Shown: piece by piece, positions 2,768-31,665 of the stretch
Layout of the letters: every line of letters begins with the position of its first letter
Position numbering within the stretch: the stretch's first letter is position 1
Assembly (NCBI GenBank): GCA_943331445.1
Contig: CALQLO010000018.1
Coordinates: forward strand, 1-36,589
Reading direction: 5' to 3'
DNA length: 36,589 nucleotides
DNA from: Akkermansia muciniphila
GTDB lineage: Bacteria > Verrucomicrobiota > Verrucomicrobiia > Opitutales > UBA953
Notes under the pieces: model-generated
The model's input: the letters and a program-made list of their open reading frames with translations, nothing else
Database searches by the model: none
Told to the model about the DNA's origin: nothing
Program-made: the position numbers and the translations under genes

Positions 2768-2871
2768 GGGTAAGTGGTGGGACAGCGGGGTGGCTGTAAG
2801 GTTTGGCGGAATCTGTGGGCCAAGGCGAGGGCAGGTTTGACCCCGGGCGGCGGCCTGTTCATACGAAACTT

Positions 2872-4170
2872 ATGAACCGACTCTTACCCCTCGTCGCTGC
2901 CCTCTGCTTGTCGTCGCTGGCGGCGCAGGTCGCCAAGCCCGAATCCCCGATTAAAATCACGGCCCGCGCCCAACGTGCGGATGCCGTTTATCATCAGGGC
3001 GAGAAGGTGGTCTTTGATGTCAGTGTCACAGATGAGGGGCGACCAGCGAACGGCATGATTGAATGGGCCATCGTTAAGGACGGCCTGCCGACGGATCAGA
3101 AAGGTAAAGCCGAGCTCGCGAACGGCAAAGCCGTGGCCGAAGGCTCGTTGAACGAGCCGGGGTTTATTCAGGTACGCGTCACCTATCGGCTGGGCACCGC
3201 GCCCAAATCACCCGTCGTTGTCGGACTCGGCGGGGCCGCGATCGACCCGACGGAGATTAAGCCCAGCCTGGCGGTCCCCGCTAATTTTGATGCCTTCTGG
3301 GCAAGCATGAAGAAAAAGTTAGCCGCCATCCCCCTTGATCCGAAGCTCGTCCCGGTCAAGTCGCCGGTCAAAGGCATTGAGTCATTCGACGTCACCGCTC
3401 CGGCACTTGGCCTCCAGATTTCCGGTTACATGTCCAAGCCGATTGGGGCGAAACCTAAGAGCCTGCCGATCATCCTGACCGTGCATGGCGCGGGGGTGAG
3501 CGATAGTTCGCTCGGTGGTTCCGCGGGTTGGGCGAGCCGGGGTTTTATCGCGATGGATATGAATGCGCACGGGCTACCTAACGGTCAGCCGAAGCAGTTT
3601 TACGCCGACCTGTATGCCGGCCCGATGAATCCCTATCGCTATGAACACCGCGACGATCCAGAGAAGGCCTATTTCACCGGCATGATGTTGCGCCTTATTC
3701 GGGGTATCGACGTCCTGACCGCCCAGCCAGAGTGGGATGGTAAGCGGGTGATTGTCTTCGGCGCTAGTCAGGGCGGCTACCAAGCCATTGCTGCGGCCGG
3801 CCTCGATGCCCGGGTCACTTATTTTGTGGCCGGCGTCCCCGCCGGATGTGATCACAGCGGCATGATGGCTAATCGTATCGCTGGCTGGCCGAAGATCGCA
3901 CCGATGAAGGAAGGCAAGCCGGACATGAGCGTCGTCGAGGCCTTCCGTTATATCGATTGTATGAACTTCGCGACGCGCACCAAGGCGGCGGGCTGCTATT
4001 TCACCGTCGGCTTCATCGATACCGTCTGCCCACCCACGAGTGTCTACGCGGCCTATAACCAGCTCACCATTCCCAAGGAGATTTATAACGACATTCCCAG
4101 CGGCCATGCGAATTCTCCGCAGGCAAGCGAAGGCATGCGGCAGGCGGTCATGAAGTACGTTGGCAAATAG
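2872..4170 (+). CDS. Acetylxylan-esterase-like alpha/beta hydrolase (AXE1 family)
   Basis: A 432-residue exported hydrolase. I start it at 2872 because the signal peptide (MNRLLPLVAALCLSSLAAQ) begins there; the frame is open upstream to 2803 but that part is not signal-like. Residues 25-115 form a beta-rich N-terminal domain; the AXE1-type hydrolase follows from about 131 (PANFDAFWASMKKKL is the family's entry helix). HGAG (205-208) fits the oxyanion loop, GASQGG (297-302) the nucleophile elbow with Ser299, and Asp383 with His412 (SGHANS) complete the triad. Relatives remove acetyl groups from xylan or cephalosporins; here an acetylated polysaccharide is likely but not shown. A TTGACC at 2837-2842 is a possible -35 box, which would place transcription start close to the ATG. 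Confidence 0.87.
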   Translation: MNRLLPLVAALCLSSLAAQVAKPESPIKITARAQRADAVYHQGEKVVFDVSVTDEGRPANGMIEWAIVKDGLPTDQKGKAELANGKAVAEGSLNEPGFIQVRVTYRLGTAPKSPVVVGLGGAAIDPTEIKPSLAVPANFDAFWASMKKKLAAIPLDPKLVPVKSPVKGIESFDVTAPALGLQISGYMSKPIGAKPKSLPIILTVHGAGVSDSSLGGSAGWASRGFIAMDMNAHGLPNGQPKQFYADLYAGPMNPYRYEHRDDPEKAYFTGMMLRLIRGIDVLTAQPEWDGKRVIVFGASQGGYQAIAAAGLDARVTYFVAGVPAGCDHSGMMANRIAGWPKIAPMKEGKPDMSVVEAFRYIDCMNFATRTKAAGCYFTVGFIDTVCPPTSVYAAYNQLTIPKEIYNDIPSGHANSPQASEGMRQAVMKYVGK

Positions 4171-4475: not shown

Positions 4476-7400
4476 ATGAGACTGCTTTGCGCCTTCCTGC
4501 TGACCTTGCTGGCTTTACCGGCCGCCGAGCCGCTCTACGACCAGAAGAATCTAGCCGCGTGGTGTATTGTGCCGTTCGACAACCAGAAGCGCACGCCGGA
4601 GCAACGGGCTACGATGGTGGCGAAGATGGGCCTCACCAAGGTCGCCTATGATTGGCGGAGCGAACATGTCGCCGAGTTCGAACAGGAGATCTTGGCTTAT
4701 AAGAAGCACGGCATCGAATACTTCGCTTTCTGGGCTTACCACGACGAGGCCTTTCGGCTTTTTGAAAAATATAAACTCCACCCGCAAATCTGGGTAATCG
4801 CAGGCGTCAAGGGTGACACCCAAGAAGCCAAGGTGAAGAACGCCGCGGAAGGGTTGCTGCCGACGATCGCTAAGACGGCGAAGATTGGGAGCAAGCTGGC
4901 GATTTATAATCACGGCGGTTGGTCCGGTGAGCCGGAGAACATGGTAGCCATCTGCGAATACCTAAAGAAGAACTACGGCGTCACCAACGTCGGCATTGTT
5001 TACAATCTGCACCACGGCCACGGCCATCTTGCCAGGTTAGACGAAGCGTTGAAGCTGATGCTCCCTCATCTGCTCTGTCTCAATATCAATGGCATGGACA
5101 TCGAGGGAGACGCCAAGGGGCGCAAGATCCTGCCGGTCGGCGCGGGCACCCAAGACCTCAAGGTGCTGCGACAGGTGCGCGCCAGCGGTTACGCCGGCGT
5201 CATTGGCATCCTGAATCATACCATGGAAGACGCCGAAGGCCGTCTGCTCGACAATCTGGACGGACTCAAGTGGCTCGTGCCGCAACTCGACGACGCGCCG
5301 ACTGGGCCGAAGCCTAAGTATCGGACGTGGTCGGACAAACCCGTCATGAAGACGACGGCCATCCCCTCAGGGCGACCCACCGGGGTGCCTTCTGTCAGTC
5401 CTGAATTCGGGAAGGCCCTCGCGGGTGGCTGGGTCGTCGATGGCGGAGCTCAGTTTGAGCAATGGCCGCTCACCATTGAGTGTCTCGCCAAACTAAATTC
5501 CAAGAGTGGTTTCAATATCCTCGTTTCAAATAATGAAAAATCCGCCAGTACGCACTGGGAGGTCTATAGTTATGTCAAAACAGGTTGCCTCAGTATCTAC
5601 CTGCCAGGCTTCGGCGGTGAGTATCGTAGCGAGACGGATATTTGCGACGGCAAGTGGCACGACATTCTCGCCAGCGTCTCGGCGGAGAAAGTTCGCCTCT
5701 GGGTGGATGGTAAAATGGTGCTCGAGCGGGCGACAGCCCCGGCGGGCCCTCTCCGCCCGCCACAGCAACATAAGCTCGGCTTTGGACAGTTGATTGATGC
5801 TTCTGTGGGCTGTGACGGCATTATTGATGACGTCCGCATTTCGCGTGGAGCGAATGATCCCACGACTTGGATTAAGGGCCCGCGTAAGCGCATGGATATC
5901 TCCCTCGGTCTTTGGAACTTTGATGACATCGATCAGATTACGGCCCGCCGGGCTGGACCCGCACCCGCGCCGTTCACTCCGGGGCTCGCGCCTTTACGAC
6001 GGGAAGATAATATCATCGCCGATCAATTCGTAAATCGCGATCGCGTGTTTGATTACTACGCCAAGGAGGCGATGGAGTTTATGGGACATCAGCCGGCACC
6101 GGTCATGCTTCCTTCCTATCCTGGCCTAGATGGAGGCAGTCAGGGGCATTGGGGCAATCAGAACGACGCGGTCACCTGGAAGGACGGACGCTGGGATAAG
6201 GCCGACCATGGGGTTCTGTTCAGCGGCGTCTTTCGTGGTGCCGGGCTGACGATTCCCAAGGCGGTTTGCGTACGCAAGGGTACTGAAGCCGCTTGCTTCG
6301 ATCCACTCACGCTTTCTTTCCCGGTTCGCTGGACGGGTGACTTCATTAAACTTGGAGATGGCCGGCACGGCTTCGGGGGCGGTGCGAACATGGCCGGGAA
6401 GTTATCCCTGAAAACTTTAGCCGAAAAGCCTAAGGGTGATTGGAAATACCACGGCTTCTATCGCCACGGCGAACGGACGATTTTTGCCTATAACAAAGGC
6501 GGCAGCGAATACCTAGCCGATGCTTGGGAGGGTGAGCAGCCGGCGGAGAAACTGGCTGCCTTCACTAAGGGTGGCCCTGCACAGTGGCCCGCCTGGCTTG
6601 AAACGACAGGGAAATTGGGTACGCAGCAGCCCTTTGCCACGGATACGGTGCTGCCCCCGTTCAAGAATCCCTATGGGACGCTCTTCTTTATCACCGGGAT
6701 CGACTTCTTTAAGGATGGCACGGCGGCCGTCTGCACCATGACCGGTGAGGTTTGGTTGGTGAAGGGTCTGGACGCCCAGTTTGATCACGTGCGCTGGAAG
6801 CGTTTTGCCGCCGGGCTGCACCACGCCCTCGGGGTCAAAATCATCGACGATAAGCTTTACGTGCTGGGGCGTGATCAGATTACCCGCTTGCATGACCTTA
6901 ACGGGGATGGCGAGGCGGACTTCTACGAGTGTGTGAACAACGCGATGACCACTTCACCAGGCGGCCATGACTTCATCGTTGGCCTGGATGCAGATGCCCA
7001 GGGGCGATTCTACACCTCGTCGGGAAATCAAGGTGTCTTACGGCTTAGCGATTCCAATAAAGTAGAAGTGCTCGCCACTGGCTTACGTAATCCCAACGGA
7101 ATCAGCGTCACGCCGGATGGCAAATTCATCCTTTCCAATGTGCAGGAAGGCAATTGGACGCCCGCTTCCGCGGTCTGTCAGGTGGAAGTGGGTCGCAATG
7201 AAGGCACGCACTTCGGTTCAGGTGGCCTCAAGCCATCTGGCATGAATACGTTACCGATTCTGCAGCTTCCGCGCGGGGAAGACAATTCCTGTGGTGGGCA
7301 GATTTTCCTCTCTGAGTCTGGCTGGTCGGGCTTAAAGGGTGATGGCAATTTCCTCCACTTCTCATTTGGCACTGGCAGCGCCTGGTTGGTTTCACGTCAG

Positions 7401-8417
7401 TTGCTCGAGGGCGTCTGGCAGTCGGCAGCGGTGAAGATTACCGGTAATTTTATGACGGGACCTCAGCATGGCCGCTTCGGCCCGCATGATGGCCATCTGT
7501 ATGTGAGCGGCATGGTGGGGTGGGGGAGCTATACACCTGAAGACGGGGCTCTCCATCGAGTTCGTCACACCGGCGGAGAATTTCCGACCCTCATTGGCCA
7601 TGAAGCCCGGGATAACGGCGTGCTGCTTCGATTTAATCGTGTTGTGGATGCATCGTTCGCGGCGAAAGCGTCTTCGCATTTCGCCCAATGTTGGAACTAC
7701 CTCTTCGGGCCGGCTTATGGTTCGCCGGAATATTCTGTGAAGTATCCCGACTCCATCGGTCACGACCCGCTGGAGATTCGGAGCGCCCATGTCGTGGAGC
7801 AGGGCCGCGCCATCTTCTTGGAAATTCCACAGCTTACCCCGGCGAACCAGATTCATCTGCATGTTGGGGTGATGCCGGCACGGTCTCAGGATGTTTTTCT
7901 GACCGCCCATCACCTGGGTAAGCCGTACACCGATTACCCTGGGTATGTCGCGGTGCCTAAGGTCATGGGGCATGATCACGTCGCTCCGGTTGCGACCGGT
8001 AAAGTTAATCCCGTTAAATGGGAAATCGAGATGTGTCGTGGTCCAGTCCGAGAAATGAAACTGCAGGCCGCCACGGGTCTGCAATACCTCCAGAAAGAAT
8101 TACGAGCCAAGGCAGGCGAGGGCATTGCTTTGCAGTTCGATAATCCGGATGTCATGCCGCACAATTTCGTCTTGGTCGCCCCTGGTGCGTTGGAACGGGT
8201 GGGTGAACTTTCGGCGAAGATGGTGGCCATGCCTGACGGCTATGCCCGACATTACGTCCCCGAGTCGCCCGAGGTGCTTTGCTATTCGCGTATGCTCGAC
8301 CCGGGGAAGCAGGCTACCGTCTTCTTTAATGCGCCGAAGGAGCCTGGTCGTTACCCCTATTTCTGTTCGTTCCCGGGGCATTCTCAAATGATGCGCGGTG
8401 TGCTGATTGTGGAATAG
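4476..8417 (+). CDS. Exported multidomain protein: TIM barrel, LamG-like, DUF6797-like, beta-propeller and type-1 copper cupredoxin
   Basis: A 1313-residue protein; the start at 4476 is chosen because a signal peptide (MRLLCAFLLTLLALPAAE) begins there. Residues about 20-275 look like the xylose-isomerase-type TIM barrel of sugar isomerases/epimerases (AAWCIVPFDNQKRTPEQRA, then EYFAFWAY). About 309-490 is LamG/concanavalin-like (GKWHDILASV, LWVDGKMV, IIDDVRIS). About 509-640 matches the DUF6797 type (YPGLDGG, HWGNQND, LFSGVFRGAG). About 725-1030 is a propeller (DLNGDGEADF, LATGLRNPNGISVTPDG). Residues 1175-1313 are an azurin/plastocyanin-like domain with all four type-1 copper ligands: His1229 (MPHNF), Cys1297, His1302 and Met1306, in C-x4-H-x3-M spacing as in azurin. 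No CxxCH haem motif is present. Likely a periplasmic sugar-modifying or oxidising protein passing electrons through copper; the activity is inferred. Confidence 0.82.
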   Translation: MRLLCAFLLTLLALPAAEPLYDQKNLAAWCIVPFDNQKRTPEQRATMVAKMGLTKVAYDWRSEHVAEFEQEILAYKKHGIEYFAFWAYHDEAFRLFEKYKLHPQIWVIAGVKGDTQEAKVKNAAEGLLPTIAKTAKIGSKLAIYNHGGWSGEPENMVAICEYLKKNYGVTNVGIVYNLHHGHGHLARLDEALKLMLPHLLCLNINGMDIEGDAKGRKILPVGAGTQDLKVLRQVRASGYAGVIGILNHTMEDAEGRLLDNLDGLKWLVPQLDDAPTGPKPKYRTWSDKPVMKTTAIPSGRPTGVPSVSPEFGKALAGGWVVDGGAQFEQWPLTIECLAKLNSKSGFNILVSNNEKSASTHWEVYSYVKTGCLSIYLPGFGGEYRSETDICDGKWHDILASVSAEKVRLWVDGKMVLERATAPAGPLRPPQQHKLGFGQLIDASVGCDGIIDDVRISRGANDPTTWIKGPRKRMDISLGLWNFDDIDQITARRAGPAPAPFTPGLAPLRREDNIIADQFVNRDRVFDYYAKEAMEFMGHQPAPVMLPSYPGLDGGSQGHWGNQNDAVTWKDGRWDKADHGVLFSGVFRGAGLTIPKAVCVRKGTEAACFDPLTLSFPVRWTGDFIKLGDGRHGFGGGANMAGKLSLKTLAEKPKGDWKYHGFYRHGERTIFAYNKGGSEYLADAWEGEQPAEKLAAFTKGGPAQWPAWLETTGKLGTQQPFATDTVLPPFKNPYGTLFFITGIDFFKDGTAAVCTMTGEVWLVKGLDAQFDHVRWKRFAAGLHHALGVKIIDDKLYVLGRDQITRLHDLNGDGEADFYECVNNAMTTSPGGHDFIVGLDADAQGRFYTSSGNQGVLRLSDSNKVEVLATGLRNPNGISVTPDGKFILSNVQEGNWTPASAVCQVEVGRNEGTHFGSGGLKPSGMNTLPILQLPRGEDNSCGGQIFLSESGWSGLKGDGNFLHFSFGTGSAWLVSRQLLEGVWQSAAVKITGNFMTGPQHGRFGPHDGHLYVSGMVGWGSYTPEDGALHRVRHTGGEFPTLIGHEARDNGVLLRFNRVVDASFAAKASSHFAQCWNYLFGPAYGSPEYSVKYPDSIGHDPLEIRSAHVVEQGRAIFLEIPQLTPANQIHLHVGVMPARSQDVFLTAHHLGKPYTDYPGYVAVPKVMGHDHVAPVATGKVNPVKWEIEMCRGPVREMKLQAATGLQYLQKELRAKAGEGIALQFDNPDVMPHNFVLVAPGALERVGELSAKMVAMPDGYARHYVPESPEVLCYSRMLDPGKQATVFFNAPKEPGRYPYFCSFPGHSQMMRGVLIVE

Positions 8418-8445: not shown

Positions 8446-8880
8446 ATGGATTATCCCCTTATGGATAAATCCAAGCTACGCCTCATCTTGCGCATCTCGC
8501 TGCTGGCCCTGTGGGCTTCTGTCGTCCTCTCGATTGCTCTAGCGTTTCTTCAGGATAAGCTGCTCCCGGATGCCTTGGTCGAATGGCATAAGTCGAGTGC
8601 TGGCCAGTTTGGCTTCGGCGATATTATCGCTTTATTGTTCTGGGGCCTTGGCCTCTTCCTGTTTTTCGTCAGCTCCATCGGCCTCTTCTTTTATCAGCGA
8701 TGGGCGGCCTGGATGTTCACGATTGTTACCGCCGTCTTCTCGCTTCAGCTCCTCGCCAGCCCCACGGTGGAGCCGGGGATTTCCTCGTTCATCGGAAGCT
8801 GGAGTGACGTCCTTACGGGAATGGTCATTGCCCTGGTCTTCTTCACGGACGTTCTCCGTGAAGATAATCACACTGCGTGA
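8446..8880 (+). CDS. Small membrane protein with about four transmembrane segments
   Basis: A 144-residue hydrophobic protein I do not recognise. Predicted membrane segments lie at about 11-34, 58-82, 87-104 and 118-136, separated by short loops; the loop between the first two (DKLLPDALVEWHKSSAGQ) is the longest. No conserved catalytic motif is visible. The ATG at 8446 has a fair Shine-Dalgarno-like AGGTGA at 8431-8436; a second in-frame ATG at 8461 follows TATCCCCTT and would remove five residues. The 28-base gap after the large cupredoxin protein suggests cotranscription, and its stop overlaps the start of the next gene by 4 bases (GTGA). It could be a membrane anchor or partner for the neighbouring exported proteins, but that is only context. 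Confidence 0.75.
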   Translation: MDYPLMDKSKLRLILRISLLALWASVVLSIALAFLQDKLLPDALVEWHKSSAGQFGFGDIIALLFWGLGLFLFFVSSIGLFFYQRWAAWMFTIVTAVFSLQLLASPTVEPGISSFIGSWSDVLTGMVIALVFFTDVLREDNHTA

Positions 8881-9965
8881 CCCGTTCGGTGTCATTGCTG
8901 GCTCGGATGGCCGTGGTGGCGGGCTTGTTGATTTCGCCGTTAAGCGCTGCTGATTCGATCGATTGGGACAAGGCCCGCGTAATTTATCAGAAAGTCCAGC
9001 AGGGGCAGGAGGTCAGTGCGGAAGATCGGGCGTACCTTGAGAAAGCCAAAGCCTTACGGGCAGCTCAAGGCGGGCAAGCTCCGCGTGATCAGGTAGGGGG
9101 CCGCCCAGTTAAGGCGGAGACGGGATTCATCCCGTTGCCCGAACTGACGGGGAATTACAAAGGACATGATGGTGGCCTCTATGGTGCTGGCCAGAACCTG
9201 CCGCCGCCAGCTTTGGATGTGATGGCCCGCGCGGCTATGGCAAGAATCACTCCACTCGATGCAGAGGGTAAGCCGAATTTGGGCGGGAAAGTAGTCCTGC
9301 TTTCGATCGGTATGTCTAATACCACGATGGAGTTTAGTGGTTTCGTGGAGTTAGCGAAGATAGATAAGCGTAAGGCTGATGCGGTTGTGGTCGTCGACGG
9401 TGCCCAGGGCGGACAGTCAGCGGATCGCATTGCGGACGAAGCCGCGCCCTTTTGGAAAGTTATCGATCAGCGTCTCGCGTCCGCCGGAGTTTCTCCCAAG
9501 CAAGTTCAAGCCATCTGGATGAAGCAGGCTTTCCCGGGTCCGCGAGAGGAATTTCCAGTAGAGGCTCGTCGGCTGGCGGGTTACTTGGAGCAGGATATCG
9601 CCATCGCCCGGAAGCGTTACCCGAATCTGCGCATCATTTATCTCTCAAGTCGCATTTATGCCGGCTTTGCCACGACCGGCCTCAACCCCGAGCCGCATGC
9701 TTATGAAGGGGCCTTTGCGGTTCGCTGGACGATTCTGAAACAGTTGGAGCCAGCGGCCGTCAACTCCGACTCCGTGTTGCTCTGGGGCCCTTACCTTTGG
9801 GCGGATGGCGTCCGTGGCCGTAAGGAGGATGGATTGGTCTGGAAGGCGGAAGATTTCGCCCAGGATGGTACGCATCCCGGGTCGGGAGGAAGGGTGAAGG
9901 TAGTTGAGCAATTGCTGGGCTTTTTCCACACTTCGCCGTACGCAGCTTGGTATCGCCGGCCATAA
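8877..9965 (+). CDS. Exported SGNH/GDSL-type hydrolase
   Basis: A 362-residue protein beginning with GTG, which overlaps the previous stop codon in GTGA, so translation is probably coupled. A signal peptide covers residues 1-25 (cut near SAADS), followed by a charged helical stretch to about 80. The catalytic core starts at about 138: VLLSIGMSNTTMEF contains the likely nucleophile Ser147 (block I of SGNH hydrolases in a GxSN form), VVDGAQGGQSADRI (172-185) supplies the oxyanion-hole glycine, and DGTH (330-333) gives the Asp330-His333 pair of block V. The block III asparagine is not clear. The family includes sialate O-acetylesterase and carbohydrate esterases; an acetyl-esterase role on glycans is plausible but unproven. 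Confidence 0.72.
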   Translation: MTRSVSLLARMAVVAGLLISPLSAADSIDWDKARVIYQKVQQGQEVSAEDRAYLEKAKALRAAQGGQAPRDQVGGRPVKAETGFIPLPELTGNYKGHDGGLYGAGQNLPPPALDVMARAAMARITPLDAEGKPNLGGKVVLLSIGMSNTTMEFSGFVELAKIDKRKADAVVVVDGAQGGQSADRIADEAAPFWKVIDQRLASAGVSPKQVQAIWMKQAFPGPREEFPVEARRLAGYLEQDIAIARKRYPNLRIIYLSSRIYAGFATTGLNPEPHAYEGAFAVRWTILKQLEPAAVNSDSVLLWGPYLWADGVRGRKEDGLVWKAEDFAQDGTHPGSGGRVKVVEQLLGFFHTSPYAAWYRRP

Positions 9966-10065: not shown

Positions 10066-12222
10066 ATGAAGTCTTACCCCTGTCGCTTGGTCCTATCGGT
10101 ATTCCTTCTGGCCCTTTGTCCCTTGGATGGCCTCGCCGCCGTCCCCGCGAAGAAGGCGGATAAAAATGATGGCCCGACGGTCAAGGCTGCAGCTCCGGTG
10201 GCCAAGCCGGTGCAGGCCGTGTCCGACAAGACGCAAATCTGGCACACTTGGACCGACACGGAGGGCCGCAAGGTGGAGGCTTTATTCTGTGGGCTCTCGG
10301 GCGATTACATCACGATGCAGACCAAGGATGGCCGCACCTACCATTTTGCCACCAGCTTACTCATCCCCGAAGACGTTGAATTCGCCAAGAGCTGCCTCAC
10401 CAAGAATCGCGATGCCAGTTTCAGCCCGGCAATCATTGCCTCGGCCGCTGCGGATATTGATCGGATGGTCGGTGCCATCCTTGCCGAGAATGGTCAGCAG
10501 CCGAACGCCCCGGCTACCGACGCACAGTTTTTACGTCGCATTTACGTCGACGCGGTGGGTCGCGTGCCCACCGCCAAAGAGGCGGATACCTTCCTGAAGA
10601 ATCCCGCCCCCGATAAGCGTGCTAAACTCATTGATGACCTGGTCTTCTCACCCGGTTACTCGATGCAGATGTTCAACTGGATGGCGGACTTACTCCGCGT
10701 GAAGGACACTTTCGGCAAGGGAGTCCCTGCCTTTACGTTCGAAGACTGGCTCAAGATGCGCCTCGCGGCAGATGCCCCTTGGGATAAGCTAGTCTACGAA
10801 ATGCTGACGGCTGATGGTCGCCTGTGCGATAACGGTGCTACGGGTTTCATGCTCTTTGATGCCGAGATGCCGCTGGATGGCGTCTCCAACCTCATGACGA
10901 CTTTCCTGGGCACAAACATGGCTTGCGCCCAGTGTCACGATCACCCGCTGGCTGAATGGAAGCAGCGCGATTTCTATCAGATGGCCGCATTCTTCGGGGC
11001 GACGAGCGGCAAGGACACCGCTATTCTGGGTGCCGTAAACAAGGCCGCCAAAGATGGCGGCCTACCTAAGGCCGCGGTAAAGAAGATCGCCGATATGAAC
11101 GCCTTCCGGATGGAGGATACCAGCAAGCAGAAGCTCACCTTCCCTAAGGATTACAAATATAAGGATGCCAAGCCCAGTTCGCCCGTATCGCCGGCGCTCA
11201 TCGCCTGGGAGAAAGAAGATAAATCCCTCCCAATTTATAATGTGGCGACTAAGGATCCAACCCAGCTGCGCATCCAGTTCAGCCGCTGGCTAACCAGCCC
11301 CCAGAATCCCCGCTTCGCGACCAATATCGCCAACCGCATCTGGAAGAAAGCTTTCGGCGTCGCGGTGCTCGAGCCCGTCAATGATATCGATGACTTGAAA
11401 CTGGCCAGCAGTCCCGAACTCTTGGCTCATCTCACCTTCGTCATGAAGGCCGCCAAGTTCGACCTACGGGAAGTGCAGCGCGTCATTTACAACTCCAAGA
11501 CTTTCCAGGCTTCGGCCAGCCCGACGCCTGATCTCGGCAAGGCGAAGTACCTCTTCCCCGGTCCCGTCGTGCGTCGCTTCACCGCCGAAGAGGCCTGGGA
11601 TAGTCTCATTGTTAACGCGCTCGGTACCTATGCCGACAATGTCCTGCTGCGCCGCGGCGACGACCTTAAAGCAATGGCGCTTCCTGCTGGCAAGGTGACC
11701 TTGGCGGAAGTGAAGAACGCCGTTGAGCGCACCAAGGCGGCCTTCGCTGGCTCGGCTAATGGTAAGGCCGCCGGTGGCAAGAAGGGCGCGGGTGGTTCCA
11801 CGCTCGGACTCGCCAATGGCTATGAGGGCGACAAGCCAGTGACGCGTTTTAACATGATGTTGGCGCGGGCGAGCGAACTACCTCAGCCATCTCCCGAAAC
11901 CCACTTCCTGCGTGTTTGGGGGCAAGGTGATCGGCTCCTAGCGGATTCGGCCACGAACGACGGCAGCGTCCCGCAACTTCTTCAGATGATTAACGGTTCA
12001 GTCTCGAAGATGATTGCCGATACGCGCTCAGCGGCGGTCATGGATGCCGCTAAAGAGAAGGTGCCGGATGCCCAGATTCGCTCGCTGTATCTTTCTTATC
12101 TCTCCCGCCCGCCCACCGCCAAGGAACTCGCCACCGCCAATAAGTCCCTGAAGGACGGCATTGGCCTGACCGACTTGGCCTGGGTTCTCGCCAACACCCG
12201 CGAATTCCTCTTCGTCCAATGA
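10066..12222 (+). CDS. SHD1-DUF1549-DUF1553 protein with one haem motif
   Basis: A 718-residue exported protein: signal peptide 1-25, Ala/Lys/Pro-rich linker to about 55, an SHD1-like small beta domain at about 59-110 (WTDTEGRKVEALFCGLSGD), DUF1549 from about 128 to 330 and DUF1553 from about 400 to the end. One CxxCH motif, CAQCH at 287-291, sits at the usual place in DUF1549 (CAQCHDHP). Unlike the three minus-strand paralogues it lacks the N-terminal PSCyt1 cytochrome domain. A Gly/Lys-rich low-complexity stretch lies at about 564-585. The C-terminus (LAWVLANTREFLFVQ) has the hallmark tail of the family. Role unknown; the haem motif and export suggest a periplasmic redox or structural partner of the DUF1501 protein whose ATG overlaps this stop codon (ATGA). 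Confidence 0.85.
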   Translation: MKSYPCRLVLSVFLLALCPLDGLAAVPAKKADKNDGPTVKAAAPVAKPVQAVSDKTQIWHTWTDTEGRKVEALFCGLSGDYITMQTKDGRTYHFATSLLIPEDVEFAKSCLTKNRDASFSPAIIASAAADIDRMVGAILAENGQQPNAPATDAQFLRRIYVDAVGRVPTAKEADTFLKNPAPDKRAKLIDDLVFSPGYSMQMFNWMADLLRVKDTFGKGVPAFTFEDWLKMRLAADAPWDKLVYEMLTADGRLCDNGATGFMLFDAEMPLDGVSNLMTTFLGTNMACAQCHDHPLAEWKQRDFYQMAAFFGATSGKDTAILGAVNKAAKDGGLPKAAVKKIADMNAFRMEDTSKQKLTFPKDYKYKDAKPSSPVSPALIAWEKEDKSLPIYNVATKDPTQLRIQFSRWLTSPQNPRFATNIANRIWKKAFGVAVLEPVNDIDDLKLASSPELLAHLTFVMKAAKFDLREVQRVIYNSKTFQASASPTPDLGKAKYLFPGPVVRRFTAEEAWDSLIVNALGTYADNVLLRRGDDLKAMALPAGKVTLAEVKNAVERTKAAFAGSANGKAAGGKKGAGGSTLGLANGYEGDKPVTRFNMMLARASELPQPSPETHFLRVWGQGDRLLADSATNDGSVPQLLQMINGSVSKMIADTRSAAVMDAAKEKVPDAQIRSLYLSYLSRPPTAKELATANKSLKDGIGLTDLAWVLANTREFLFVQ

Positions 12223-13526
12223 GTATCCTCACCTCCGCCAGTCTCCTCCGCGATCCCGAAGATCGCCGCCGCTTCATCGAGAAGTGTGCGAAAATATCAT
12301 TCGGCCTGAGCATCCTGCCGTTCTTCACGGGAATCGCGGAAGCCGCTGAGCAGGCCGGTGCCGTCGCGGCGCCCAATGCCGGCCTCCCAGGCTTCGGTAA
12401 GGCCAAGCGCGTCATCTTCTTGGAGTTACAGGGCGGTATGTCGCACATCGACACCTTTGACCCGAAGACCGGCGACAACAAAGGTCCGGGCAAGGCGATT
12501 TCGGCTAAAGGTGATTACCAGCTGACGGAATACCTTCCGTCGATCGCCAAAATCGGCGATAAAATCACCGTCGTCCGTAATATGACGGCCAAGGTCGGCG
12601 TGCACGCTTCGGCCTCTTACCTCATGCGCACAGGCTTTGAACAACGGGGCACTTTGCAGCACCCGACGCTCGGGGCTTGGGCGCAACATTTCCTCGGGGC
12701 AAGCCATAAGACCTTGCCGTCCTCGGTGGCCGTCAATCGCTCCGCGAACCATGGGAACGGCTGGTTCCCAGCTTCATTCTCCCCTCTGCCGATTCAGAAT
12801 CCCGAGGATGGGCTACTGGACACCAAGAGCCCAGTTACGACGGAAGTTGCGGCCAAGCGTGCCGGCTTATTGGCCCAATTGGACTCCGGGTTTGGGGGTA
12901 AGGCGGCAGATGAAAACGTGAAGGCTTACAACGAATTCTACGACACGACCTTCCAGCTCATGAAGAGCACCGACCTTAAGGCTTTTGATCTCGCTTCCGA
13001 GCCAGCCGAAGTGCGCGCCCGCTACGGTAAGAGCAAGTTCGGACAAGGTTGTCTCTTGGCCCGCCGTCTCATTGAGAACGGCGTCCGCTTCGTCGAGGTC
13101 GCTAATGGCGGCTGGGACATGCATGCCACCTTGGGTGATCGGATGGAAACGCTCGGCGGCGACTTCGATCGCGTCTTTGCCACATTGATCCAGGATCTTG
13201 ATTCCAAGGGCTTGCTCGACACCACGTTGGTCGCGGTCACCACCGAATTCGGCCGGAAGCCTGACTTCAGTGGCGGCGGTCGCGGTCACCATCCGCTCGT
13301 CTTCTCCACCGTGCTGGCGGGCGGCGGGGTGAAGCGTGGTTTCGTGAATGGTGCCAGCGATGCCAAGGGCTACGCTCCAGATGGTGATGGGGTTTCACCT
13401 GGCAGCCTCCACGCCACGATTGCGCATGCCGCTGGCTTACCAGTGCAGACGGATATCATCACGCCGGCGGGACGTCCGATGCAGGTCGGGAATAAGGCCA
13501 AGCCCGCCATGGGCGTCTTCATCTAA
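12219..13526 (+). CDS. DUF1501 protein (alkaline-phosphatase-superfamily-like fold)
   Basis: A 435-residue DUF1501 protein, shorter than the three minus-strand paralogues (479-487). Its start overlaps the DUF1553 stop in ATGA. The N-terminus has a twin-arginine-like motif (DRRRFIEK, residues 15-22) before a hydrophobic run, so Tat export is likely. Conserved DUF1501 signatures are FLELQGGMSHIDTFD, the Trp-Asp-x-His stretch GGWDMH, TEFGRKPD, GRGHH, and LHATIAH near the end; these His/Asp positions are candidate metal ligands in this superfamily. Compared with the paralogues it has GRGHH in place of GRDHH and TTEFGRK in place of WGGEFGRT, so it belongs to a different subfamily. Biochemical role unknown. 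A strong terminator follows 18 bases after the stop. Confidence 0.87.
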   Translation: MSILTSASLLRDPEDRRRFIEKCAKISFGLSILPFFTGIAEAAEQAGAVAAPNAGLPGFGKAKRVIFLELQGGMSHIDTFDPKTGDNKGPGKAISAKGDYQLTEYLPSIAKIGDKITVVRNMTAKVGVHASASYLMRTGFEQRGTLQHPTLGAWAQHFLGASHKTLPSSVAVNRSANHGNGWFPASFSPLPIQNPEDGLLDTKSPVTTEVAAKRAGLLAQLDSGFGGKAADENVKAYNEFYDTTFQLMKSTDLKAFDLASEPAEVRARYGKSKFGQGCLLARRLIENGVRFVEVANGGWDMHATLGDRMETLGGDFDRVFATLIQDLDSKGLLDTTLVAVTTEFGRKPDFSGGGRGHHPLVFSTVLAGGGVKRGFVNGASDAKGYAPDGDGVSPGSLHATIAHAAGLPVQTDIITPAGRPMQVGNKAKPAMGVFI

Positions 13527-20303: not shown

Positions 20304-21767
20304 CTAGGCCATCAATTGCTTCACGACCTTGCCGTGGATATCGGTCAGGCGGAAATCACGGCCTTGGTAGCGATAGGTCAGGCGAGTATGGTCGACGCCC
20401 ATGAGGTGTAGAATGGTCGCGTTGAGGTCGTGCACGTGGACGCCGTCCTTGACGATGTTGTAACTAAAATCATCGGTCTCGCCAAACGTGGTGCCTTTAT
20501 TGACGCCCGCGCCAGCCATCAAGACCGTGAAGCAGCGTGGGTGGTGATCGCGGCCGTAGTTCGTCTCAGTCAGGGCGCCTTGGGAGTAAATTGTGCGCCC
20601 GAATTCGCCGCCCCAGACAATCAGGGTGTCATCGAGTAGGCCGCGTTGTTTGAGGTCGGTGAGTAGGCCGGCGGTGGCCTGGTCGGTGTCGTTGCACTGG
20701 CCTTTGATGGCCTTAGGGAGTCCGCCGTGGTGGTCCCAGCCCATGTGGAAGAGTTGCACAAAGCGAACGTCACGTTCGCACAGCCTGCGGGCGAGTAGGC
20801 AATTGGAGGCGAAGGAACCGGGGCGCTTCACGTCAGGGCCGTAAAGATCGAGGATGTGTTGCGGTTCATTAGAGATATCGAGCAGGTCGGGCACGCTGCT
20901 TTGCATGCGGAACGCCATTTCGTATTGAGCAATGCGGGTCTGGATCTCGGGATCACCGAGTACGCCGTGGCGTTGTTGGTTGAGTTCGGCGAGTTCATCC
21001 AGTTCGGCCCGGCGAACTTCGCGGGGGATGCCTTCGGGGTCTTTCAGGTAAAGGACACGTTCGCCTTTGTTGCGTAGTTTGACGCCTTGGAGTTTCGAGG
21101 GCAGGAAGCCGGCTCCCCAAAGACGATCGTAGAGAGGTTGATCATCGGGACGCCCACTGCCGAAAGAGCTCATCACGACATAGGCAGGCAAGTTGGCATT
21201 TTCGCTGCCGAGGCCGTAGGCGGACCATGAGCCGATGCTGGGTCGGCCGGCGAGCTGACTACCAGTCTGCATGAACGTGATGGCCGGGTCGTGATTAATC
21301 GCCTCGGTATTCATGCCGCGAATCACGCACCATTCATCGGCTTTGCCAGCCATGTGCGGCATCAATTGGCTGAACCAGTTGCCACTTTGGCCGTGCTGGG
21401 CGAACTTGAACATCGACGGAGCCACCGGGAAGTTTTTCTGGCCCGATGTCATGGTCGTCAGCCGCTGGCCTTTGCGAATGGTCTCGGGGAGGTCTTTGCC
21501 GCGCATCTTCTCCATCTCCGGTTTTGGGTCGAAGAGATCGAGTTGCGAGGGAGCACCCGATTGGAAGAGGTAGATGATGCGCTTGGCTTTCGGTTTGAAA
21601 TTCGGGAAGCCGAGTCCGGGGTTGGCGGCGAAGCCCGGCGTGCTCATGAGCGAGCCGAGGGCCGCGAGGCCGATGCCGCCCGCGGAGCCTTTGATGAAGG
21701 TCCGACGGGAGAGCGCCATGCGCGTCGCCATGTCTAATCCTTGGAATTGTCGATCGTTGCAGTTCAT
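20304..21767 (-). CDS. DUF1501 protein with Tat signal
   Basis: A 487-residue DUF1501 protein. Twin-arginine signal SRRTFIKGSAGG at 20-31. Signatures in order: LFQSGAPSQLDLFDPKPEM, IRGMNTEAINHDPA, GSWSAYGLGSEN, LLARRLCERDVRFVQLFHMGWDHH, WGGEFGRT, GRDHHPRCF, HVHDLNATILHLMG, and the C-terminal RLTDIHGKVV. The Asp and His residues in WDHH, GRDHH and HVHD are candidate metal ligands of this alkaline-phosphatase-like fold. The start is kept at 21767 because its ATG overlaps the upstream TGA (ATGA); a second ATG 12 codons in is possible. Role unknown; the strict pairing with the upstream haem-motif protein suggests a joint function. Confidence 0.9.
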   Translation of the reverse strand: MNCNDRQFQGLDMATRMALSRRTFIKGSAGGIGLAALGSLMSTPGFAANPGLGFPNFKPKAKRIIYLFQSGAPSQLDLFDPKPEMEKMRGKDLPETIRKGQRLTTMTSGQKNFPVAPSMFKFAQHGQSGNWFSQLMPHMAGKADEWCVIRGMNTEAINHDPAITFMQTGSQLAGRPSIGSWSAYGLGSENANLPAYVVMSSFGSGRPDDQPLYDRLWGAGFLPSKLQGVKLRNKGERVLYLKDPEGIPREVRRAELDELAELNQQRHGVLGDPEIQTRIAQYEMAFRMQSSVPDLLDISNEPQHILDLYGPDVKRPGSFASNCLLARRLCERDVRFVQLFHMGWDHHGGLPKAIKGQCNDTDQATAGLLTDLKQRGLLDDTLIVWGGEFGRTIYSQGALTETNYGRDHHPRCFTVLMAGAGVNKGTTFGETDDFSYNIVKDGVHVHDLNATILHLMGVDHTRLTYRYQGRDFRLTDIHGKVVKQLMA

Positions 21768-24700
21768 TCGCGGGTCACGGTTTCGTCTAAGTTAAGGAGA
21801 ACATTGGCGGTCACGGTCCAGGCGGCGACTTCCTCAGGTTTGAGGTCGGCGGCGGGCGGCGAGGCGCCAGCAGCAAGCAGCTTCTTCGCTGAGGCCAGAT
21901 CGTTGGCGTAGGTCTGGAGGCGCCGTTCAAGTCCCTGGCGGAGGACGGCTAGCTCCTTCGGGTTGGCGTCCCGAGAGGTCACGCGATGGAAGGCCCAAGC
22001 CAAGCGCACGGAGAGATCACCGGGTTGGCGGAGGGTTAATTCCGCTAATTTACGGGCAGCCTCGACGTAGGTGACTTCATTCAATAGGGACAACGCCTGA
22101 AGTGGCGTATTCGAGCGTGAGCGCTTGACCGTGCAGACTTCGCGACCGGCCGAATCAAAGAGGAGCATCGAGGGCGGGGCCGCGGTACGTTTCCAAATGG
22201 TGTAAAGCGAGCGGCGATAGAGACCTTCGCCCATGTCGGGTTTATAATTGCGCATGTCGCCATAGACGCTGGTTTCGTCCCAGACGGCTTCGGGCATGTA
22301 AGGTTTCACACTCGGTCCGCCCTGTTTTTCAACGAGCAGTCCGCTGATGGCCAAGGCTTGATCGCGGATGAGTTCAGCTGGCAGGCGGAAGCGAGGTCCG
22401 CGAGCGAGTAAGCGGTTGTCGGGGTCTTTCTCCAGCATGTCCTTGGTCACAGCCGCGCTGCGGCGGTAGGCTGCACTCGTGAGGATGAGCTTATGCATCG
22501 CCTTCATGTCCCACTTGCGGTCAACGAACTCGACGGCCAGCCAGTCGAGTAGGGCAGGGTTACTCGGCCACTCGGCTTGCGAGCCAAAATTCTCGGACGT
22601 CTTTACGAGTCCGACACCGAAGAATCGTTCCCAGGCACGATTAACCCAGACGCGTCCGGTGAGTGGATGGCGGCCGCTGACGAGCCACGAGGCGAAGCCA
22701 AGTCGATTGTTGGGGGCGCCTTCAGGCAACGGCGGCAGGAAGGCTGGCAGTTTGCGTTCCACCTTGGGGCCGATGCGGTCATATTCTCCGCGGAGCAGGA
22801 GGAAGGCGTCGCGGGGTTTGTCGCTTTCCTTCATCACCATGATATTCACTGGGGCGCCCTTGGCATTATCGAGGGATGTCTTGGCGGCGGTGACTTTATC
22901 CATCGCTTGTTGGCGGGGGTGTTCCGGGCTTTCGGTGAACAGTTTGGCGATAGCCTTTCGATCGATGTCCGTGAGTTCAGCGTCTGGGCGCCCAAGGAGT
23001 CGGCGGAGGGTTTCCGACTTAGGGTCAGATTTTAGCGATAGGAGTTTGGCGTCTTGGCTCGAGGTGTTGAGGCGGAAGCGCCCGATGCTGTGACCGCCGA
23101 ACGAATCATGGCGGAGCACCACGATTAATTTAGCACCCGTTGGGATGAGGGTCGGTGCCACGGTGAAGATGGCCTGACGGTGGACGCGGTTTTCGGGGAT
23201 GTTGCCGCCGATGGCCCAGCCGACGCTGCCAGGCGCGGCCTTCTTGGCTTTGCCCTTGGCGGGAGGAGCTTTAGCGAGGCCAGCGATGGACCAGCCGGGT
23301 TGGTCAAAGTCGGTTTCCGCCTTGGTGATTGGCAGGGAGGAGGTTTTGCCGTCAGCCGTGACGAGACGCACATCGATAGAGCTGAGCACGAAGTTTCCGT
23401 TAGAGCCTCGGCCAAGGCTTTTTCCAGGGAGGCTATCATCTGGGAAAGCCTCCAGTCGAACCGCGGTGAGAAGTCCGGCCGCTGGCTGGGATTCGATGAG
23501 ATACGTTTCTTTGGCTGGTGCTGTCCCGAGCGCGAGCCAGGTGCCATCCTCGAGTCGTTTGAAGGTGGTCCCTTGCTCGGCCGCGACTTTCTCGCCTTCT
23601 AAGATATTCCAAGGAGTGCCGCTCTGGCTGAAGGCCAAGCGTTTATCGCTCAACCATTTGTGGTAGAGTTCAGGTTGCTCGGCGGGCGTGTTATTGAGCG
23701 CAGCTTCCGCCGTCGCTAAGACGCTGGCGGCGTCGTCAATTTTCTTTTGCTCTTCCAGGGTGGGCAATGAGAGCAGTGGCGGGGTGTTGCCACCGCGTCG
23801 GGTGGTGCCGGCACCGCCGAAATCTCCCAAAACGCCAGATTCTTGGTTAGAATTAAAATAGGCGAAGAACTGGTAGAATTCTTTCTGTGTGATGGGGTCG
23901 TATTTATGGTCGTGGCAGCGACAGCAATTCATCGTCAAGGCCATCCAGGTCGACCCAGTGGTTTCCACGCGATCGATGACGTTTTCCGCAAACCATTCCT
24001 CGACGATGCGGCCTCCCTCGCCGTTGAGGCGGTGGTTACGGTGGAAAGCGGTGGCGACGATTTGATCGCGGGTGGCATTCGGCAAGAGGTCGCCCGCGAG
24101 TTGCTCAAGGGTGAATTGGTCGAACGGCTTATTGTCGTTGAAGGCCTTGATGACCCAATCGCGATAAGGCCACATCGTGCGCTGGGTGTCGCTCTGGAAG
24201 CCGTTGCTGTCGGCGTAGCGGGCGAAATCGAGCCACTGCATCGCCATGTTCTCGCCGTAACGCGGCGAGGCGAGCAGTCGATCAACGGCTTTCGGCCAGG
24301 CCTCCGTGGAGGCGTCTCTGAGGAAGGCTTGGAGGTCGGCGTCGGTCGGCGGGAGGCCGGTCAGGTCGAGCGCAGCGCGACGGAGTAGGGTGGTTTTGGG
24401 GGCGTCTCCATTCGGGCTGAGGCCCTTGGCGGAGAGGCCTTGGGCGAGGAAAGCATCGATGGCGTTGCCGTTGGCCGGAATCGTAGGAGTGGCTGGCTTG
24501 CTTGGGGGAATGAATGCCCAGTGCCCTTGGTATTCGGCGCCTTGTTTGATCCAGCGTCGGACCGTGTCAATTTGGGCAGCGGTCAGCACCTTGTGGAAAT
24601 CCGCAGGTGGCATGTGTTCATCGGCATCCTTAGTGAGGAGGCGTTCCATGACTTGACTCTTTTCTGGGTGCCCGGGGACGATGGCTGGCTTCTCGGATTT

Positions 24701-24901
24701 GCCGCCTTTGATCGCTGCTTCAAATGAATCTAGTCGTAGCTTGGCTTTGACCTTGGCGACATCGGGGCCGTGGCAAGCGAAGCAGGTGTCGGAGAAGATG
24801 GGCCGGATGTCGCGGTTGAATTCGACGCGCTCCTCGGCCGAGGCATAGGGACCAAGGGCGAGGGCGCTGAGTGCGACCAGATGGGGGAGCGAGGGGCGCA
24901 T
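21764..24901 (-). CDS. PSCyt1-DUF1549-DUF1553 protein with a discoidin-like insert
   Basis: A 1045-residue exported protein. Start set at 24901, where MRPSLPHLVALSALALG opens a signal peptide; the frame is open 13 codons further. PSCyt1 cytochrome domain: FNRDIRPIFSDTCFACHG with CxxCH at 40-44 and Met97 (HMPPADFHK) as likely axial ligand. DUF1549 from about 150, containing PRYGENMAMQWLDFARYADS and a second motif CCRCH near residue 325 (CCRCHDHKYDP). A beta-rich, discoidin-like insert at about 400-630 is itself interrupted by a Lys/Ala/Pro linker. DUF1553 from about 730 to the end (SWLVSGRHPLTGRVWVNRAWERFFGVGLV, then the SNTPLQALSLLN stretch). Likely periplasmic, haem-binding; reaction unknown. 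Directly upstream of and coupled to the DUF1501 gene. Confidence 0.88.
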   Translation of the reverse strand: MRPSLPHLVALSALALGPYASAEERVEFNRDIRPIFSDTCFACHGPDVAKVKAKLRLDSFEAAIKGGKSEKPAIVPGHPEKSQVMERLLTKDADEHMPPADFHKVLTAAQIDTVRRWIKQGAEYQGHWAFIPPSKPATPTIPANGNAIDAFLAQGLSAKGLSPNGDAPKTTLLRRAALDLTGLPPTDADLQAFLRDASTEAWPKAVDRLLASPRYGENMAMQWLDFARYADSNGFQSDTQRTMWPYRDWVIKAFNDNKPFDQFTLEQLAGDLLPNATRDQIVATAFHRNHRLNGEGGRIVEEWFAENVIDRVETTGSTWMALTMNCCRCHDHKYDPITQKEFYQFFAYFNSNQESGVLGDFGGAGTTRRGGNTPPLLSLPTLEEQKKIDDAASVLATAEAALNNTPAEQPELYHKWLSDKRLAFSQSGTPWNILEGEKVAAEQGTTFKRLEDGTWLALGTAPAKETYLIESQPAAGLLTAVRLEAFPDDSLPGKSLGRGSNGNFVLSSIDVRLVTADGKTSSLPITKAETDFDQPGWSIAGLAKAPPAKGKAKKAAPGSVGWAIGGNIPENRVHRQAIFTVAPTLIPTGAKLIVVLRHDSFGGHSIGRFRLNTSSQDAKLLSLKSDPKSETLRRLLGRPDAELTDIDRKAIAKLFTESPEHPRQQAMDKVTAAKTSLDNAKGAPVNIMVMKESDKPRDAFLLLRGEYDRIGPKVERKLPAFLPPLPEGAPNNRLGFASWLVSGRHPLTGRVWVNRAWERFFGVGLVKTSENFGSQAEWPSNPALLDWLAVEFVDRKWDMKAMHKLILTSAAYRRSAAVTKDMLEKDPDNRLLARGPRFRLPAELIRDQALAISGLLVEKQGGPSVKPYMPEAVWDETSVYGDMRNYKPDMGEGLYRRSLYTIWKRTAAPPSMLLFDSAGREVCTVKRSRSNTPLQALSLLNEVTYVEAARKLAELTLRQPGDLSVRLAWAFHRVTSRDANPKELAVLRQGLERRLQTYANDLASAKKLLAAGASPPAADLKPEEVAAWTVTANVLLNLDETVTRE

Positions 24902-24962
24902 GGGGTGTGCGAGTTCTGAAAAGTTAGGTGCCCTCCACACCCTTGCAACGAGTAGTTAATAA

Positions 24963-25006: not shown

Positions 25007-26320
25007 TTATTTAGCTTCGATGGGCTTCACCGATAGATTGCGGAAGCCGACGGGATCGCTGTGTCCAGCGAAACCAAAGTAGCCGTGGGTGCGGTCCTTG
25101 CCAGGGTGGGCGCTCTTGGCCATCACGGTGGTCATATCGACCTTGGAGAGGTCGCAGTCGAGGATGAGGTAGCCATTGAGCTCCACCTTGATGGTGGAGC
25201 CAACGACGGTGACTTCTTCGAAGTTCCATTCGCCGATGGGGCGCTGGTAACCGCGGAGCGCAGCCACCATGCCGTAGGCGGAACCGTGAACCTGGCGTGG
25301 GTCGAGTTTGCCACGTACCTTGTCGTAATTGTCGTCGAGCACCTGGATTTCACACATGCCGACATAGGCCGTATTGCCTTCTCCCGGGTAGCGGATGCAG
25401 AAGCCGTTATTGCCGCCGACAGGAATCTTAATTTCGGAGCGAACGGAGAAGTTGGTGAGGTCATCCTTATGGTAGAGGTTGCCGCCCTTCTTGGGCTTAC
25501 AGAAAATCGCACCATCAACCACTTCGTACTCGGTGACGGCGCCGCGCCAGTCGGTCAGGTCCTTGCCGTTGAAGATGGATTTGAAGCCCTCGTTGCCATG
25601 AGCGGCCAGGATTTTGTTCGCTTCTTCGCCGCCGATTTCGCGGATGGCGATGTTGCGCCACTTAATCTGAGCACCGTGGGTTTGCAGGCAGATCGGGCCT
25701 TTGGCGGGGATGGCGGATTTACGATCGTAGTAGTTTTCGAGGATGGCGTGGTCGACGGTCTGCTTGCCGTTGAGCCAGACGCTGACGCGGGAGCCGACCA
25801 TGAGGATGCGCATCGTGTTCCATTCGCCAGGTGCCTTGTCGGCGAGAACGAGAGGGTTTTTACCAGGAGCCCCCTTGCTGTTATTCCAAAGGCCACCGGA
25901 ACCGAGCTGGGCGTCGTTTTTGACTTCCTTCGGATTGGCGGGATCCCAGATTTGGACCTGCGGGCAGGCGCGGAGGTAAACGCCGGAGTCGCCGAGGGGG
26001 GCCATGTTATATTCGAGGACAAGTTCGATGTCGCCGTAATCCTTGTCGGTGGTGGCGTAGGCGCCCGTCCCTGGATTGACGAGCTCGCCGTCCTTCACGG
26101 ACCAGTGCTGCGGGAATTCGTCGCGCATCTTCTTCAGGATGGCGTCCTTCTTCTCGCCGGTTTGCTTGCCGACGGAATGCGGATTGTAGCCATGCCAGCC
26201 CGTGAGGTCTTTGCCGTTAAACAAAGGCGTGAAGCCCGCGGGGGTGGTATTTGTCTGGGCGGTGGAGCAGCCCGCGAAGACGGCAGCCAGAGAGGCCAGG
26301 AGGAGGAGGCGTAGTTTCAT
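25007..26320 (-). CDS. Double-DUF1080 (3-keto-disaccharide hydrolase-like) lipoprotein
   Basis: A 437-residue protein with two DUF1080 domains (about 31-228 and 247-434), each opening with FNGKDLT. The family is a concanavalin-like beta-sandwich; studied members cleave 3-keto-glycosides made by Gfo/Idh/MocA-type oxidases. The start is at 26320 (MKLRLLLLASLAAVFAGCSTAQ), a likely lipoprotein signal with Cys18, though Phe at -3 of the lipobox is unusual; the longer frame upstream overlaps the preceding gene's stop. Domain 1 shows GDSGVYLR and EWNTMRI, domain 2 GGNNGFCIRYPGEGN, MCEIQVLDD and GEWNFEEV, so both keep the usual core. The gene follows the single-domain DUF1080 gene by 10 bases. Probably anchored to a membrane. 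Confidence 0.9.
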   Translation of the reverse strand: MKLRLLLLASLAAVFAGCSTAQTNTTPAGFTPLFNGKDLTGWHGYNPHSVGKQTGEKKDAILKKMRDEFPQHWSVKDGELVNPGTGAYATTDKDYGDIELVLEYNMAPLGDSGVYLRACPQVQIWDPANPKEVKNDAQLGSGGLWNNSKGAPGKNPLVLADKAPGEWNTMRILMVGSRVSVWLNGKQTVDHAILENYYDRKSAIPAKGPICLQTHGAQIKWRNIAIREIGGEEANKILAAHGNEGFKSIFNGKDLTDWRGAVTEYEVVDGAIFCKPKKGGNLYHKDDLTNFSVRSEIKIPVGGNNGFCIRYPGEGNTAYVGMCEIQVLDDNYDKVRGKLDPRQVHGSAYGMVAALRGYQRPIGEWNFEEVTVVGSTIKVELNGYLILDCDLSKVDMTTVMAKSAHPGKDRTHGYFGFAGHSDPVGFRNLSVKPIEAK

Positions 26321-26330
26321 ATGTTTGGGA

Positions 26331-28505: not shown

Positions 28506-28507
28506 GA

Positions 28508-31630: not shown

Positions 31631-31665
31631 GGCAGGGGTAGGCTTTAGACAAGCTGGCACCGCCC

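Follow-up and report, generated by a model that had tools for sequence, protein, structure and literature searches.

The subject of this analysis is one gene in a 36,589-nucleotide stretch of Akkermansia muciniphila DNA (assembly GCA_943331445.1, contig CALQLO010000018.1), which we call the window. It encodes a protein that joins a (βα)8 barrel of the xylose-isomerase fold to a LamG domain, DUF6797, a six-bladed β-propeller and a type-1 copper domain, an arrangement that recurs in related loci. The barrel carries other residues at the positions of the superfamily metal site, and electron carriers repeatedly accompany the propeller. We put the chances at about even that this is a modular oxidoreductase linked to carbohydrates, exported and bearing its electron carrier as a tethered domain. 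Its frame of 1313 codons is uninterrupted from ATG to stop, with an AAGGA 7 bases upstream of the ATG, and contains the following parts.

4476..8417, forward strand: whole gene, a single open reading frame of 1313 aa (ATG at 4476, stop ending at 8417)
4476..4526, forward strand: putative signal peptide, residues 1-17 (hydrophobic N-terminus, read by eye)
4551..5291, forward strand: (βα)8 barrel, xylose-isomerase fold, residues 26-272
5466..5852, forward strand: LamG/concanavalin-like domain, residues 331-459 (Pfam, above cut-off)
6291..6515, forward strand: DUF6797, residues 606-680 (Pfam, above cut-off)
6630..7571, forward strand: six-bladed β-propeller, residues 719-1032
8043..8414, forward strand: type-1 copper (auracyanin-like) domain, residues 1190-1313 (Pfam Copper-bind passes)

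The original prediction had read such a fusion from the sequence, and Pfam searches together with AlphaFold modelling recover every domain that it named, the barrel and cupredoxin folds included. The model of residues 480-1313 has a mean predicted local distance difference test score (pLDDT) of 89.5 and a predicted template modelling score (pTM) of 0.89, and that of residues 20-1185 has values of 87.2 and 0.65. The domain folds are confidently modelled; the placement of the barrel relative to the propeller is not, because of the pTM of 0.65. The N-terminus suggests that the protein is probably exported. A promoter scan found one candidate against a shuffle mean of 2.6, which is not above the shuffles, and a terminator scan found nine against 6.5; a comparison with PHROGs gave two matches, at chance level only.

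The barrel shows the complete (βα)8 superfamily fold in the model. Chemistry in the xylose-isomerase-like superfamily usually uses a metal, bound by a Glu/Asp/His/Glu site. In an alignment to 3wqo and across 54 rows, all four ligand positions are replaced in the window protein (conservation counts consider only open reading frames spanning at least 70% of the domain).

4905..4913, forward strand: Y144-N145-H146, end of β5, Y144 at the relatives' metal-Glu position (each 54/54 rows)
5004..5006, forward strand: N177, end of β6, at the metal-Asp position (54/54 rows)
5082..5090, forward strand: N203/N205, end of β7, at the metal-His position (54/54 and 52/54 rows)
5211..5213, forward strand: L246, end of β8, at the metal-Glu position (L in 39/54 rows, I in 15/54)

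Because of these replacements a standard metal-dependent isomerase is unlikely, and a metal-dependent isomerase or epimerase was discarded as a candidate on the same ground. The barrel nonetheless retains a conserved pocket: 26 of its 46 near-invariant columns fall in 64 of 253 positions at the pocket, the pocket and opposite-face positions being windows picked by hand around the modelled strand ends. Its score against AP_endonuc_2 misses the Pfam gathering threshold (25.9 versus 31.1 needed), which is passed by all four barrel-bearing relatives scanned (L048, whose barrel is a stand-alone gene, L073, L043 and L086) and by a barrel of Spirosoma. Comparison of the barrel profile with six canonical barrels by hhalign gave a probability of 92%; the same comparison with one canonical epimerase gave a meaningless result. 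According to the original prediction, a polypeptide with an epimerase/isomerase-like barrel could bind a sugar, act on it and pass electrons to copper. That the barrel works on a sugar in this way and supplies the copper is unsupported, both at the ligand positions and because an isomerase yields no net electrons.

A barrel enzyme that works without metal on keto-sugars or 3-keto-glycosides (as an epimerase, lyase or hydratase), with the propeller as a lactonase and the copper recycling an oxidised intermediate, strikes us as improbable. The superfamily's metal-based habit speaks against it, we recognised in the barrel no group of residues characteristic of a different mechanism, and a lactonase supplies the copper with no electrons. 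More distant barrels (L103, L111, L112, L104 and L105; E 1e-25 to 2e-16 against the barrel profile) also miss the metal ligands and carry YPH-like and NLxH motifs in the printed parts of their alignments, so that, judging by these motifs, they and the window barrel perhaps form a larger metal-free subfamily. The Spirosoma oryzicola barrel (plasmid, L143 8893-9810) is a free gene within a locus of SusC/SusD-type, GH5, GH140 and Gfo/Idh/MocA genes.

The C-terminal domain has a cupredoxin fold in the model, and its predicted ligands are invariant.

8160..8162, forward strand: predicted copper ligand H1229 (72/72 rows)
8364..8393, forward strand: predicted ligand loop C1297-x4-H1302-x3-M1306 (72/72 rows, spacing constant)

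The four ligands and azurin spacing named in the original prediction are thus intact, and the domain reads as an auracyanin-like type-1 copper carrier that putatively binds copper. Azurin in the strict sense was rejected (TIGR02695 equivalog, 34.8 bits versus a cut-off of 105.1). In the own genome, a family search for PF00127 returned nothing, although the window domain matches by hmmscan, which we take as a limit of sensitivity; a protein query found the window's copy alone. According to the passages of PMC8779525 that bear on this point, azurin genes were counted in Verrucomicrobia, the sole Planctomycetes hit was called contamination or wrong annotation, and azurins had a divergent N-terminal region. 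This region could hide fusions, a word with no occurrence in those passages.

One genome per species (84,980 species) was scanned with six query peptides. The scan gave 107 matching stretches, and in 106 of them a relative is encoded; retention of the best 80 left 77 loci, the true number being higher. Nearly all are labelled Verrucomicrobiota or Planctomycetota, with a few metagenome-assembled genomes labelled otherwise (e.g., L058 and L065) or plainly as 'bacterium'. The sets used for comparison hold 44 of 47 loci (A1) and 61 of 67 (A2), near-copies or cut rows being excluded, 22 of the 56 barrel-carrying loci (A3) and every third row of A2 (A4).

Segment matching places the barrel at the N-terminus of the fusion in 50 of the 77 loci, which share the domain order of the window protein. 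Elsewhere the barrel is a separate neighbouring gene (4/77; next downstream in three, just upstream in one), is fused C-terminally (1/77) or is missing from the fetched stretch (11/77); in ten loci it is unseen, as the frame leaves the contig, and the L084 locus stops before the core. The permuted member (L073 3006-7145) runs from a haem motif through DUF6797, propeller and copper to the C-terminal barrel. Since the barrel splits and permutes across loci in this manner, it looks functionally linked to the core of DUF6797, propeller and copper domain. The family is patchy within the phylum: among 145 sampled genomes the barrel profile matches in 12 (E 1e-5), and only four of these, the own genome included, hold close members. 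One relative in a metagenome-assembled genome (L041 1504-5648) is split into two overlapping frames, whether in reality or through an assembly error.

This recurrence also bears on whether the gene is a mis-assembled chimera or is decaying. Nothing except the unusual domain list speaks for such an artefact, the recurring architecture contradicts it, and with ligands and pocket conserved and the frame open throughout we consider its probability negligible. The original prediction was right that the architecture is not standard, in so far as the layout is unusual and no description of it was found in the open-access literature searched (mostly titles and abstract starts, preprints and supplements lying outside the scope); it is no one-off.

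A haem-c motif (CxxCH) stands upstream of DUF6797 in 39 of the 77 loci and nowhere else in those 39 frames; the window protein has none. Seven motif-bearing relatives were scanned, and Pfam places a cytochrome c at the motif in six (E 0.01; L043 under the cut-off) and none in L061. In Kustd1711 (7zs0), whose haems have potentials of about +350 mV according to the relevant part of PMC11791136, the inserted haem stretch matches the C-terminal portion with haem and 'nose' (E 3.7e-19). A tree built by a quick method and rooted at the midpoint comprises 62 rows. Of the 22 verrucomicrobial rows that form one group in it, none bears the motif label (20 are marked as lacking the motif, two are unlabelled), and 38 of the other 40 carry it, the exceptions being L030 (no motif) and L050 (cut). 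Rows L034 and L037 bear no haem label, although the scan finds no motif in either, and the label of L081 reads 'barrel none' even though its reading frame leaves the contig. Two changes on the tree suffice to explain the pattern, and the tree does not indicate the ancestral state.

Within the own genome (94.8% complete), four DUF6797 matches were found, and each is paired with an electron carrier: the paralogue L004 has a C-terminal cytochrome c domain where the window protein has copper, and next to L002 and L003 lie cytochrome c genes in the same orientation. Propeller matches of this genome without a DUF6797 hit (L005-L009) show no CxxCH within their own frames. In Catenovulum a propeller gene directly follows a c-type cytochrome gene. 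Another genome of the phylum (G118) encodes a 1116-aa frame (L140 8121-11468, reverse strand) that contains three CxxCH motifs besides an F5/8 type C domain and HZS_alpha (hydrazine synthase alpha middle), and a free barrel gene lies about 60 bases downstream of it.

Because electron carriers accompany the propeller so repeatedly, we favour its reading as a dehydrogenase, and it is likelier than the barrel to be the electron source or redox unit. The electron-transfer role that the original prediction had inferred for the protein gains from the in-chain haem motif and from the three paralogues that pair propeller and cytochromes c; the barrel as the source is unsupported.

We propose that the LamG domain (Pfam score 38.7 bits versus a cut-off of 27.6; found in 44 of the 77 loci) and the barrel would hold a (poly)saccharide-derived ligand. 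The propeller, whose fold occurs in soluble sugar dehydrogenases among others, would perform or receive a two-electron oxidation, possibly with a redox cofactor such as pyrroloquinoline quinone (PQQ). The tethered copper would accept electrons singly and deliver them to an acceptor in the periplasm or membrane. Most planctomycete-type relatives have a haem-c motif after the sugar-binding part and before the propeller; it may provide a second carrier, which the verrucomicrobial branch would do without. A more specific form of this proposal, a self-contained saccharide oxidase in which the metal-free barrel grips one end of a sugar for oxidation by the propeller and the electrons exit via copper (in planctomycetes via haem and then copper), all in one polypeptide, we hold to be doubtful.

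The propeller is the weak link of the oxidoreductase proposal: its modelled fold is that of PQQ-dependent sugar dehydrogenases (GSDH), but fits lactonases and NHL scaffolds equally well, and its sequence could not be tied to a dehydrogenase. In the barrel, three of 54 rows have Glu at position 248, two past the β8 site, where the others have His, which tempers the rejection of a metal-dependent isomerase. The Spirosoma barrel likewise has a Glu near this position; yet its β6 position is Asn.

Regarding the propeller sequence, the window protein has no match to the GSDH profile PF07995 at E 0.01, and a distant Catenovulum homologue reaches 16.6 bits, under the cut-off of 25. Comparison of A4 (propeller) with A6 by hhalign gave a probability of 11.7%, out of register, with a motif GxRNPxG in common by eye; GSDH membership is not claimed. 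A search of the PDB with the propeller profile (E up to 10) returned 13 sequences, mostly PknD and Pizza repeats, with one gluconolactonase (E 1.9) and no sugar dehydrogenase.

The barrel, LamG domain and propeller could also be scaffolds that bind polysaccharide or partner proteins, only the copper (and haem) being redox-active and shuttling electrons for another enzyme. We rate this non-enzymatic conduit as rather unlikely. The gathering of near-invariant barrel columns at the pocket argues against it, as does the propeller, where 60 columns, including many polar ones, are invariant over 21 rows; such conservation would exceed the needs of a scaffold. The modular oxidoreductase remains our preferred reading.

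The gene has the following neighbours.

2803..4170, forward strand: acetyl-xylan-esterase-type gene (Pfam AXE1), kept upstream in close relatives (10 loci, not counting the window)
8446-9965: two genes directly 3' of the fusion gene, 144 and 362 aa, no Pfam match
10066..13526, forward strand: PSCyt2/PSD1 and DUF1501 genes (Pfam), also downstream in close relatives

Downstream of relatives, PSCyt2/PSD1 homologues occur in 9 loci (>65% identity) and DUF1501 homologues in 8 (>80%). The survey had a lower limit of 150 aa for reading frames and misses shorter neighbours; homologues of the 144-aa gene were found in 3 related loci, a count that this limit can lower, and those of the 362-aa gene in 2 besides its own copy. 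Ten planctomycete neighbour proteins from five loci include a sulfatase (L086), a glucuronyl/acetyl-xylan-type esterase (L043), PSCyt with DUF1501 (L048) and DUF1501 (L064), plus unrelated genes; the single L074 protein scanned had no match. The window holds three pairs of PSCyt2/PSD1 (DUF1549/DUF1553) and DUF1501 genes (10066-13526, 20304-24940 and 27066-31660), two of them also with PSCyt1, and a fourth DUF1501 gene (34281-36523) near its edge beside a frame showing just the PSD1 end. Two adjacent 3-keto-disaccharide hydrolase (PF06439) genes lie on the reverse strand (25007-26987), and elsewhere there are a sulfatase gene and ordinary genes, e.g., for arginine decarboxylase. The esterase, sulfatase and 3-keto-disaccharide hydrolase genes nearby point to a setting in carbohydrate metabolism.

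Among the proteins of Planctomycetes and Verrucomicrobia are many large redox proteins without a known purpose. A family in which barrel, LamG domain, propeller, haem and copper are fused, split and re-fused offers a link, open to testing, between the breakdown of polysaccharides and electron transfer outside the cytoplasm. Haem and copper carriers would occur in it naturally on a single enzyme core, and its barrel shows a pocket that is conserved yet metal-free inside a superfamily known for metal-dependent chemistry. If the saccharide oxidase were true, it would give bacteria of the Planctomycetes-Verrucomicrobia-Chlamydiae (PVC) group a route for the extracytoplasmic oxidation of sugars derived from polysaccharides, coupled directly to respiration.

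Several known systems share parts of this layout. UlaE, D-tagatose 3-epimerase and YcjR have xylose-isomerase-like TIM barrels, from which the window barrel differs by its four replaced ligand positions, and the propeller has no sequence match to the soluble PQQ-type glucose/aldose sugar dehydrogenases (2ism, 3das and 3a9g) despite their fold. Nitrous oxide reductase likewise combines a propeller with a C-terminal cupredoxin and gives the top Foldseek row (1qni), but with template modelling scores of 0.14-0.19 and a root-mean-square deviation of 28 Å there is no sign of homology and the likeness is one of layout only; its copper is also of a different type. Low-scoring Foldseek rows that came from very large chains with many domains were set aside as coincidences of single domains. 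In freshwater Verrucomicrobia, PSCyt domains are joined to LamG-type carbohydrate-binding domains with unknown function, and nothing is known of what PSCyt proteins do (He et al., 2017; PMC5615132, main text); these are PSCyt/PSD proteins, and that text contains no azurin, cupredoxin, plastocyanin or isomerase. Haem-bearing PVC propeller proteins (TIGR02604) carry CxxCH, whereas the window protein, a weak match over residues 776-853 (24.1 versus a cut-off of 122.2), has copper instead. Auracyanin and azurin are free small carriers, and their counterpart here is the C-terminal domain of a 1313-aa protein. No paper on DUF6797 was found in the open-access literature; within the own genome, DUF6797 and propeller are common to the window protein and its cytochrome-c-tailed paralogue L004.
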